A stretch of 20,278 bases of DNA. It comes from a virus. The stretch is taken from positions 1-20,278 of IMG/VR virus record IMGVR_UViG_3300032265_000105; one strand, given 5' to 3'. Below are positions 2,104 to 10,016 of this stretch, piece after piece. A program made the position numbers and the translations under genes. The notes under the pieces are model-generated. The model did not search any database and was not told the origin of the DNA. It worked only from the letters and a program-made list of their open reading frames with translations. How positions within the stretch are numbered: position 1 is the first letter of the stretch; each line of letters opens with the position of its first letter.

Positions 2104-3096
2104 TTAAGCGGCAACGCGGCAAGCAAGTTCGGGGTACAGCGGTGCCCAGCCATACAACACGTCCAAGCGAGTCGGAATCGAATCGTTATTGATGGTGTAT
2201 TGGCGAACCACACGCATGGAGAGCCCGATTTCCTTATCGGAAGCGCGGCCAGCGAAGTGGACTCCGTCAGGCAGCTCGAGGTCAGCAACTGCCAAGCAAA
2301 ATGCATGCCGATGCATGACTATATTCTGCGGAGAAACCGTTCCAGTGTTGTTAAACGGGGTCACAGCAGCGGTCGAAGACGTAGCCGAGATATATACGTT
2401 TTGGAACTGGCCTGCGGAGATGACAGCGGGGCTGACAGTCACCGAGGTAGTACCGGACGTAGCAACGGTCACAGCAGAGGTCACGACAAAGTTACGCAGC
2501 TTGTTGGAGCCGTAAGCCTGGCGGTTCTGTGGGTTGACTGCGTACACGTTTGCAATGGTGATAACGTCACCTTGTTGCAGCGATGCAGTTGCGGTCGTGG
2601 CGGTCAGCGCGATGGTGGACGAAGAAGCCCAGCCCGAAGTCAGGAAGCCAGTTGCGGTTGAAGTATTGCACGCCAAGGTAGCAGTGCTATACGAACCGAA
2701 AGTTTGGCTCACAACGTTCTGGTCAAGTTTCCAGTTCATGCCAGCGGAGTCGCGTCCCATCAAGCCCTTGCGATATTGTTCGCCAATGGCTTCTTGAGGC
2801 ACAAACAGACCCTTCAAGCTGTCAACGATAGTCGCAGCGGTGAACGGCTCCACGATACAAGAACGGCGGCCATCACGGGGTGCGCCCTCAGCGTCGAGGT
2901 AAGCGCCTGCGGTCAGGTAGGTAATCAAACCAGTTGGAGGCGTGCCAGCAGTACCGACGATGTTCGCGGTATTGTTTTTAGCCATAACAAGACCATCACG
3001 GTCAATCTTATTGGCAATGGCAGCCACAGCGGGCTTGAGAACGCGGTCACTGAACATATCCAGCGACAGGGCCAGGTCTTGAGTGGTGAACTGGGT
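2104..3096 (-). CDS. Major capsid (coat) protein, P22 gp5-like, exon 2
   Basis: This holds codons 86-415 and the stop of a P22-family coat protein (HK97 fold) that builds the procapsid shell. It begins TQFTTQDLALSLDMFSDR. That segment matches the family region xxFSSxDLALSLDDFSxR, which normally follows a HVD motif; the HVD lies in exon 1. Further family-like segments are LKPAVAAIANKID, IVDSLKGLF and QYRKGLMGRDSAGM. The central region, rich in Thr and Ser, probably corresponds to the variable insertion domain. An ATG at 3099 makes this look like a free-standing gene, but it has no Shine-Dalgarno and is the last triplet of the intron. Spliced product 415 aa, close to P22 coat (about 430). The scaffold gene lies directly upstream, as in P22. 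Confidence 0.9.
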   Translation of the reverse strand, partial: TQFTTQDLALSLDMFSDRVLKPAVAAIANKIDRDGLVMAKNNTANIVGTAGTPPTGLITYLTAGAYLDAEGAPRDGRRSCIVEPFTAATIVDSLKGLFVPQEAIGEQYRKGLMGRDSAGMNWKLDQNVVSQTFGSYSTATLACNTSTATGFLTSGWASSSTIALTATTATASLQQGDVITIANVYAVNPQNRQAYGSNKLRNFVVTSAVTVATSGTTSVTVSPAVISAGQFQNVYISATSSTAAVTPFNNTGTVSPQNIVMHRHAFCLAVADLELPDGVHFAGRASDKEIGLSMRVVRQYTINNDSIPTRLDVLYGWAPLYPELACRVAA

Positions 3097-3374
3097 CATT
3101 CTGTTACTTCGGCTCTCCAGCCTACTGACCCTTTCGGGCGGGGTTGGTGCTTCGACCTACCCTCAGCGACTTCAATCAGGTTATATCGCTGTTCAGACTA
3201 TCGCATCAGCTTTCGCTGCCATCCCACTTAGTCGTTCAGGCTGCACAGAGTTTCCTCTTGCTTGCCCCCTGTCGCCCACCTCTGGGCTTCCAAGTCAATC
3301 AGGGACGGTTTTGCCAATCAAGCAGTCAGAGCAAAAAATGCGCTGTTTGCTACTTGATATGTGGACATCGGTTT
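3097..3374 (-). ncRNA. Group I self-splicing intron (278 nt, no ORF) in the coat gene
   Basis: P1: exon AUGUGGAU (3382-3375) pairs with the guide GUCCACAU (3366-3359), giving the U-G wobble at the 5' splice site. P2: 3358-3350 with 3325-3317 (9 bp). P3: CCGUCCC (3308-3302) with GGGAUGG (3225-3219). P7: GACUA (3233-3229) with UAGUC (3200-3196). P8: CAGC-GAAA-GCUG (3218-3207). P9: CAGCGA (3191-3186) with UCGCUG (3169-3164). Further hairpins lie at 3287-3274, 3258-3247, 3138-3129 and 3122-3111; the exact P4-P6 pairing is less certain. The core GCAGCCUGAACGACUA resembles that of the T4 td intron, as does the 3' end in AAUG. Terminal G is 3097. Removal joins HVD to TQF in frame without a gap. No homing endonuclease is inside. 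Confidence 0.92.
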
Positions 3375-3629
3375 ATCCACATGGAATTGGGTCGACAAAG
3401 TAACGGGAACCGAGGTCTCGACAAAGTCTTCCACATTCAACGCTGGGCCAGTAGTACCAATAAAACGGCCAGGGCGACGGACGTTTACGGTGTTACCGAT
3501 TTTCGCACCAACGACAGCGAACTGGTCATCATAGTTTCTATCTATCTCCGAGGTGAACGTCAACTCGTTTTCTAAAACCATCAATGCTTCATTGGTGATT
3601 TTAGAGATGGTAAGCAGATTGTTGCTCAT
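3375..3629 (-). CDS. Major capsid (coat) protein, P22 gp5-like, exon 1
   Basis: This encodes the N-terminal 85 residues of the coat protein: start MSNNLLTISKITNEALMV, then a conserved region ending STQFHVD. This is the typical N-terminus of P22-like coat proteins, in which helices bind the scaffold and beta strands follow. The ribosome binding site AGGAG lies 8 bases before the ATG. Without splicing the frame runs into the intron for 18 more codons and stops at 3318, giving a useless 103-residue fragment. The exon ends exactly at a codon boundary (GAT, Asp85), with U as the last base as group I splicing requires. The stop codon of the scaffold gene is 18 bases upstream. Confidence 0.9.
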
Positions 3630-9611: not shown

Positions 9612-9741
9612 CTTGCTTCTCCAGTTCGGTTAGCGTCCATTGACATTGTTGCAGCGCACCATTGATTTGGTGAATCTGAATTTCCAGTTCGCGGCCTTTA
9701 GCCATGAGGTCTTGGATTCTTGCGGTGATTAGGTCTTTCAT
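9571..9741 (-). CDS. Small coiled-coil protein, 56 aa
   Basis: I chose ATG 9741 because GGAGG lies 5 bases upstream and the start overlaps the co-chaperonin stop as ATGA. The upstream in-frame start at 9771 would add ten residues without a good ribosome site. The product is mostly one amphipathic helix (LMAKGRELEIQIHQINGALQ) with an acidic tail, so a coiled-coil oligomer is likely. No family is recognised. It sits between the GroES-like and basic 45-aa genes in the leftward operon. Confidence 0.7.
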   Translation of the reverse strand: MKDLITARIQDLMAKGRELEIQIHQINGALQQCQWTLTELEKQDASEEVADTQSAE

Positions 9742-10016
9742 ACTTCCTCCACGAAACAAATGTCCTGCCAACTCATGCGGAGATGGCGCTGGTCGTCAAT
9801 GGTAATGGTATCAAATTTAAGGTATTCGTCTTTGTACTCTTTAGCCAAAGTACCAAAATAGACCTTATCGCCGACTTTTAAGCCCTCGGCTGCGGCCTCG
9901 TCACCTACCGCGGTAATGTAGCCAACAGTGTCCGCTTCTGCGGTTTTAACCCACAACTCGCTTTTGATGCGCGTTTCGGGCTTAACGATGATTTTGTCTT
10001 TAAGCGGCTTGAACAT
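9738..10016 (-). CDS. groES: GroES-like co-chaperonin (Cpn10)
   Basis: The 92-residue length is typical of Cpn10. It starts MFKPLKDKIIVKPE, like the first GroES beta strand (xxPLxDRVxVKxxE). A shorter mobile loop follows, in which LWV (residues about 22-24) could take the place of the IVL tripeptide that contacts GroEL. Then come GYITAVGDEA and LKVGDKVYFGT, matching the GroES barrel, and an ending DICFVEEV. It would cap host GroEL, as T4 gp31 does, to fold the coat protein. It overlaps the upstream gene by 17 bp and the next by 4 bp, within the operon leading to the head genes. Confidence 0.85.
   Translation of the reverse strand: MFKPLKDKIIVKPETRIKSELWVKTAEADTVGYITAVGDEAAAEGLKVGDKVYFGTLAKEYKDEYLKFDTITIDDQRHLRMSWQDICFVEEV

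Follow-up and report, generated by a model that had tools for sequence, protein, structure and literature searches.

A compact group I intron family in phage coat genes, with a linked coreless mini-insert that may depend on its ribozyme

Capsid genes of the mycobacteriophage LittleE and the lactococcal phage Tuc2009 are each interrupted by a group I intron, in LittleE with support from RT-PCR and protein sequencing, and the tail gene of BAKA carries an ORF-less group I intron of 265 nt (PMC3706429). Several such introns can occupy one phage gene, as in Twort orf142, which has three introns and undergoes exon skipping; the introns of Bastillevirinae average ~800 nt, mostly contain endonuclease ORFs and lie in polymerase, terminase and nucleotide-metabolism genes (PMC11878797). 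Genes for nucleotide synthesis and DNA metabolism are described as the preferred locations of phage group I introns, for reasons that are unknown (PMC12350094).

The viral DNA investigated here (the window, a stretch of 20,278 bases analysed as a whole) carries a P22-like morphogenesis block on its minus strand, with genes for terminase (PF04466), portal (PF16510, E 1e-176), scaffold (phrog_8865) and coat. The coat frame is split into two ORFs, 3318-3629 and 2104-3099 (minus strand), exactly as an earlier note on this DNA had described. Without splicing, what is left is an open frame of 103 aa, which ends in an intron-encoded tail, KPMSTYQVANSAFFALTA, and another of 331 aa. The gap from 3374 to 3097 contains stops in all three frames, and cutting out 3374..3097 joins HVD in frame to TQFTTQ, giving a protein of 415 aa that matches PF11651 (P22_CoatProtein) end to end (E 1e-34). 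Exon 1 (3375..3629, minus strand) comprises codons 1-85 and ends in HVD, and exon 2 (2104..3096, minus strand) runs from TQFTTQ to the stop, as supported by its ORF, the joined frame and the P22_CoatProtein match. Compared with intronless alleles the junction is seamless, which bears out the note's further claim that excision leaves no residue missing. Elsewhere in the window, 9738-10016 (minus strand) encodes a phage-borne GroES-like co-chaperonin (Cpn10, E 4e-5), which is also annotated in the relative ctn9Y15.

The insert itself (3097..3374, minus strand; coat site nt 255) is 278 nt long, contains no ORF and has the helices of a group I intron, all of them given here on the minus strand. 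The 5' strand of P1 lies in the exon (AUGUGGAU, 3375..3382), its last U being the 5' splice site, and pairs with the internal guide GUCCACAU (3359..3366); the complete element, AUGUGGAU/AAACCGAU GUCCACAU with the slash at the splice site, has 8 bp, an 8-nt loop and a U.G pair at the junction. A P2 hairpin region (AUCAAGUAGC...GCUUGAUU, 3316..3358) was assigned from the sequence; it varies among introns and is absent from those at site 153. The 5' strand of P3 (CCGUCCC, 3302..3308) pairs with GGGAUGG (3219-3225), with compensatory changes at 6 of its 7 pairs. In the P4-P5-P6 domain (3238..3294), 100% of alignment cells are paired and compensatory changes occur in P5 and P6. P7, the guanosine-binding helix, joins GACUA (3229..3233) to UAGUC (3196-3200) in a pseudoknot with P3. 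P8 (3207..3218) rests on an alignment of 36 introns, and the P9 and P9.1 hairpins (3141..3191) show compensatory changes at 11 of 14 pairs. A terminal guanosine (omega-G, 3097) precedes the 3' splice site, as it does in every resolved intron, most of which end in GUAACAGAAUG; the junction search required a terminal G. P10 is weak in the window intron.

For the alignment, same-family introns were taken from the coat genes of other contigs, giving 36 introns at 14 sites. They share P3, P4, P5, P6, P7, P8, P9 and P9.1, with 98.3% of cells paired and a compensatory change at 26 of 42 pairs. Doubly changed cells numbered 319, against 89 in shuffled alignments and at most 57 when partners were slid. 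The nested consensus fold omits P7; we entered this pseudoknot manually and included it in the counts, and it is present and invariant in 36/36 introns. The guides fit the exon of their own site, with 77 bp in total over the 14 sites compared with no more than 67 in 2000 swaps. The group I fold that the note had read from the gap (P1 with U-G, P2, P3, P7, P8 and P9) was thus found helix by helix, with strong covariation in the core, and its description as a compact, ORF-less intron holds.

The note had also proposed a search with the Rfam group I model (RF00028), which found no match in the window, whether at the gathering score or with E values up to 10. The same model reaches another family member at only 20.8 bits, whereas a model specific to the family gives 117 bits for the window; we therefore attribute the miss to the limits of the Rfam model and do not count it as evidence against the intron. 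Since the Rfam scans were empty, this core covariance model was built from the family itself, using 27 coat introns from other sites and none from site 255. It has a single match in the window (3191-3311, minus strand, 117 bits, E 1.9e-25) and none in the intronless contigs L005 and L006, and it recovers introns in the ribonucleotide reductase gene of a Roseobacter phage (4e-16) and in a Desulfovibrio phage (5e-15).

Relatives of the coat gene were found in at least 599 stretches of IMG/VR, of which the best 80 were kept for comparison. All but one of these (79/80) are intronless over their full length. Among the matches listed, protein identity of intronless coats to the window coat reaches 98%, a value attained by the closest of them, L005, in which the 200 nt surrounding the junction are 93.5% identical and precisely these 278 nt are missing at the nt 255 site. 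The comparison with intronless relatives that the note had suggested hence yields an exact empty site. Near-identical 278-nt introns are present in the independent contigs L134 and L161, and the complete genome MW202674.1 (ctn9Y15, L373; Manatee Spring) has a homologous intron at the same coat site, its two exons being listed as two coat genes. Bacterial genomes with prophage relatives of the coat gene indicated candidate host groups and no firm host.

Could the insert be a degenerate element that no longer splices, so that the phage makes a shortened coat fragment of 103 aa and the C-terminal part as a second polypeptide? There is no splicing experiment, both frames remain open, and MW202674.1 does annotate two coat genes. 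This is nevertheless barely credible given a fully conserved core with compensatory changes, a P1 of 8 bp, exons that join seamlessly and the recurrence of the near-identical intron in L134 and L161. The presence, boundaries, fold, family and sporadic distribution of the window intron are observed in the DNA; that positions 3097-3374 form a self-splicing group I intron is almost certain in our view, with splicing in the cell inferred. In the transcript, AUGUGGAU at the exon end would base-pair with the guide GUCCACAU; P7 would bind a free guanosine, whose attack after the U of the U.G pair would release the exon. A second attack, by that exon after G3097, would join HVD to TQF and so give an intact coat mRNA.

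Site 255 is one of at least 14 resolved insertion sites in this coat gene, the others being nt 67, 116, 135, 153, 221, 311, 326, 612, 614, 1064, 1149, ~1169 and ~1180. The positions of ~1169 and ~1180 shift with indels among the references, and junctions at site 153 that were off by 4 nt in some loci were realigned by sliding. L241 has a 277-nt intron near coat nt 1086, the junction of which is unresolved, and this is possibly another insertion site. The coat introns are 218-281 nt long. Up to three occur in one coat gene, at nt 67, 221 and 311 in L137, at nt 135, 255 and ~1180 in L134, and at nt 67, 255 and 1064 in L206; L238, L241 and L329 have three each, plus the mini-insert described below. 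Once the introns are removed, nearly all complete coat loci read through to proteins of 406-424 aa, with late stops remaining in L235 and L288.

Occupancy of these sites is sporadic, in line with the note's suggestion of a mobile intron. On a coat tree of 142 rows, presence at site 255 changes at least 13 times and presence at site 326 changes 5 times. The motif CATGTGGAT precedes site 255 in all intron-containing alleles and, among the best 80 relatives, in 5 of 79 intronless alleles, a contrast that is partly selection bias because one search pattern loosely assumed the motif. The best explanation is that the family of the window intron moves from phage to phage as copies inserted into intronless alleles, the route of mobility being inferred. 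Near relatives differ in the coat sites they have occupied (for example, the window, L134 and L161 compared with L005 and L006), which suggests recent intron exchange among lake phages.

As the window intron has no ORF, it probably owes its mobility to an endonuclease acting in trans or to reverse splicing. No endonuclease was seen next to the coat gene in the 20-kb window, and neither an ORF nor a homing endonuclease of its own was found in the coat introns examined. That the coat introns spread within the gene mainly by reverse splicing and not by endonuclease homing is possible, though we doubt it. The idea draws on this absence of ORFs, on the many sites within one gene, and on the sequence CCGU, which immediately precedes 6 of the 14 sites and is the complement of a shared guide (the window coat CDS has only ten CCGT). 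A strong P1 is, however, needed for splicing itself, relatives in the family do bear LAGLIDADG or HNH ORFs, and a complete related genome has a free-standing HNH gene. Specifically, L121 has a LAGLIDADG-like ORF upstream of 736 (E 8e-4, just under the Pfam cut-off) and L003 an HNH_3 endonuclease gene at 1703-2356 (E 3e-8), in both cases with a family intron in a non-coat gene, and in MW202674.1 (ctn9Y15) the HNH gene lies among the tail genes (27314-27892) and is a candidate homing enzyme acting in trans. These genes make homing in trans plausible for the ORF-less coat introns.

Outside coat genes, a core-pattern scan yielded at least 42 further introns. Judging from flanking peptides, ~34 of these 42 among the matches listed interrupt other major-head genes, and profile scans of representatives matched phrog_9953 (E 1e-96), phrog_14242 (2e-7) and phrog_1357 (1e-10). 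One intron each was found, again among the matches listed, in a P22-type portal gene, a probable terminase gene and a ribonucleotide reductase gene. Unscanned major-head assignments rest on peptide similarity judged by eye, and the proportion is provisional. Unrelated major-head genes with family introns include those of L107, L121, L125, L153, L192 and L250, and L125 has three family introns within ~1.6 kb. Provisionally, then, the family shows a preference for the major-capsid genes of phages from several unrelated groups.

A second kind of insert, not present in the window, occurs in relatives at coat codon 40, 34 nt upstream of the nt-153 intron. It is only 32-41 nt long and breaks the frame, and no coat gene with the nt-153 intron was without it. 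We found it at 49 loci in 21 distinct sequences (including L177:1124-1221, L259:4859-4964, L361 and L357); these rows are related, and the counts are not independent events. The core of the nt-153 intron lies downstream in 45/45 loci with enough sequence, and the mini-insert and intron 153 are gained and lost together on the coat tree, the pair changing 11 times. Two scans that did not assume the insert sequence returned this insert alone from coat genes, always with intron 153. Pattern matches outside coat genes (e.g. L217, L226, L231, L240 and L243) were rejected, as the rest of the arrangement is missing and their number is about that expected by chance for 16 fixed bases.

The mini-insert has the splice-site elements of a group I intron. 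With slashes marking the cuts, it reads GUGGU/AUAA..NNCCU GNCUC..UUG/AGG and ends in G. Exon 1 and the insert form a P1 of 8 positions, with U.G at the junction (position 1) in 21/21 sequences, a constant unpaired U-U at position 4, and covariation at position 2 (G-C in 20, A-U in 1) and position 6 (U-A in 15, A-U in 5, G-C in 1). In P10, formed by the P1 loop with exon 2, position 4 is U-A in 5 sequences, G-U in 10, A-U in 3, C-G in 2 and G-C in 1; all are paired, and 0 of 5000 shuffles match this. The insert also forms a covarying P2-like helix of 9-11 bp with the 34-nt micro-exon between the two inserts (own score 351, compared with a best of 330 in 5000 swaps), and the 3' splice site lies within the loop of this helix. 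Minimum-energy folds show P1 of the mini-insert, the P2-like helix and P1 of intron 153 in tandem in 18 of 19 cases, and intron 153, unlike most of its relatives, has no P2. What the mini-insert lacks is a catalytic core of its own, since 32-41 nt leave no room for P3-P8. With splice-site elements and no core, it would act as a group I substrate and not as an autonomous group I intron. Of 506 pairwise differences in the micro-exon, 378 fall at third codon positions, and the amino acids of the family are retained, a pattern implying that the micro-exon is translated and that the mini-insert must be skipped.

We favour, with moderate confidence and in the absence of a splicing experiment, the interpretation that one group I ribozyme splices two introns from the coat mRNA, its own and the coreless 32-41-nt mini-intron. 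The insert, its strict linkage to intron 153 and the covariation are directly visible in the sequences; removal by the neighbouring core is inferred from them. In the proposed mechanism, the mini-insert would supply P1, P10 and the terminal G and form P2 with the micro-exon, intron 153 downstream would supply P3-P8, and its core would also excise the mini-intron, so that one core would carry out two splicing reactions.

It is quite unlikely, in our judgement, that ribosomes skip the mini-insert in the manner of the 50-nt coding gap of T4 gene 60, even though its length and the stop that directly follows the last exon-1 codon inside a stem-loop in most sequences (UAA after GUA) would suit such bypassing; the mini-insert starts with UAA or soon reaches it, and its lengths differ modulo 3. 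In bypassing, the landing codon must match the take-off codon (PMC5009743). Here the take-off codon is GUA or AUA and the only possible landing triplet, just ahead of the resume codon, is UGA in all 21 sequences, so that a valyl-tRNA cannot land. Nor does bypassing predict the U.G pair at the junction, the covariation of P10 with exon 2, the terminal G or the linkage to a group I intron. Frameshifting or readthrough was rejected, all three frames being closed in 19/21 sequences and UGA preceding the resume codon in all.

Excision by one adjacent core also has to be weighed against removal by a different copy of the ribozyme, using group I chemistry in trans, or by an RNA-processing enzyme of host or phage. 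The mini-insert does have substrate elements only, and engineered spliceozymes take out coreless introns in trans (PMC4094466). We hold this to be unlikely, because no mini-insert is seen in a gene that lacks intron 153 further downstream and the P2-like helix uses the micro-exon that ends at the 5' splice site of intron 153. The mini-insert could also merely hitch-hike with intron 153, in which case splice-type covariation would not be expected to be kept. Two further candidates were discarded: skipping of the micro-exon would break the frame and remove codons conserved in their amino acids, and the guide of intron 153 itself (GCGGAC) does not pair with GUGGU of exon 1 and so cannot have been retargeted to the mini-insert.

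We found no report in the open-access literature of a capsid-specialised group I family this dense, or of a coreless group I mini-intron, and we know of no natural coreless, ribozyme-dependent group I intron described before. If our reading of the mini-intron is true, it would be the first natural case and a group I counterpart of reduced group II-derived introns. In proposals on how spliceosomal introns originated, the change from a self-splicing to a dependent intron is the central step; it has been engineered but, to our knowledge, not found in nature for group I ribozymes. Confirmation would therefore provide a natural example of a self-splicing intron turned into a dependent one that is cut out by a separate catalyst. 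Compact and invisible to Rfam, the family places as many as three introns in the gene that is expressed most strongly; standard annotation halves such coat genes and overlooks the introns. Its preference for capsid genes also makes the question of intron target preference testable.

Among described systems, LittleE and BAKA resemble the present case in that a group I intron interrupts an essential gene for virion structure, with U before the intron and G at its end, and there splicing is proven at one site per gene (PMC3706429). The note's remark that a group I intron in a coat gene is uncommon has to be qualified, given LittleE and Tuc2009. In contrast to LittleE and BAKA, the coat family described here has at least 14 sites, up to three introns per gene and a distinct intron sequence family, and lacks a splicing experiment. 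Twort and the Bastillevirinae resemble it in that a single phage gene can contain several group I introns and that internal exons are small, whereas the coat-family introns are only 218-281 nt long and lie mostly in major-head genes. The ORF-less ribonucleotide reductase intron of Roseobacter phage CRP-118, unannotated in its record, has the same core (E 4e-16, 74% DNA identity over 117 nt) in a different host gene. T4 gene 60 resembles the mini-insert in its short frame-breaking insert, hairpin and immediate stop (PMC5009743), but the mini-insert has no matched landing codon and instead shows group I-type splice-site pairings. In engineered spliceozymes, too, a group I core removes a separate coreless intron from a pre-mRNA (PMC4094466); these are man-made and act in trans, whereas the putative mini-intron is natural, 32-41 nt long and linked in cis to its proposed ribozyme. 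What is new relative to the known capsid-gene introns is the scale and specialisation of the family, together with the coreless mini-insert in its relatives.
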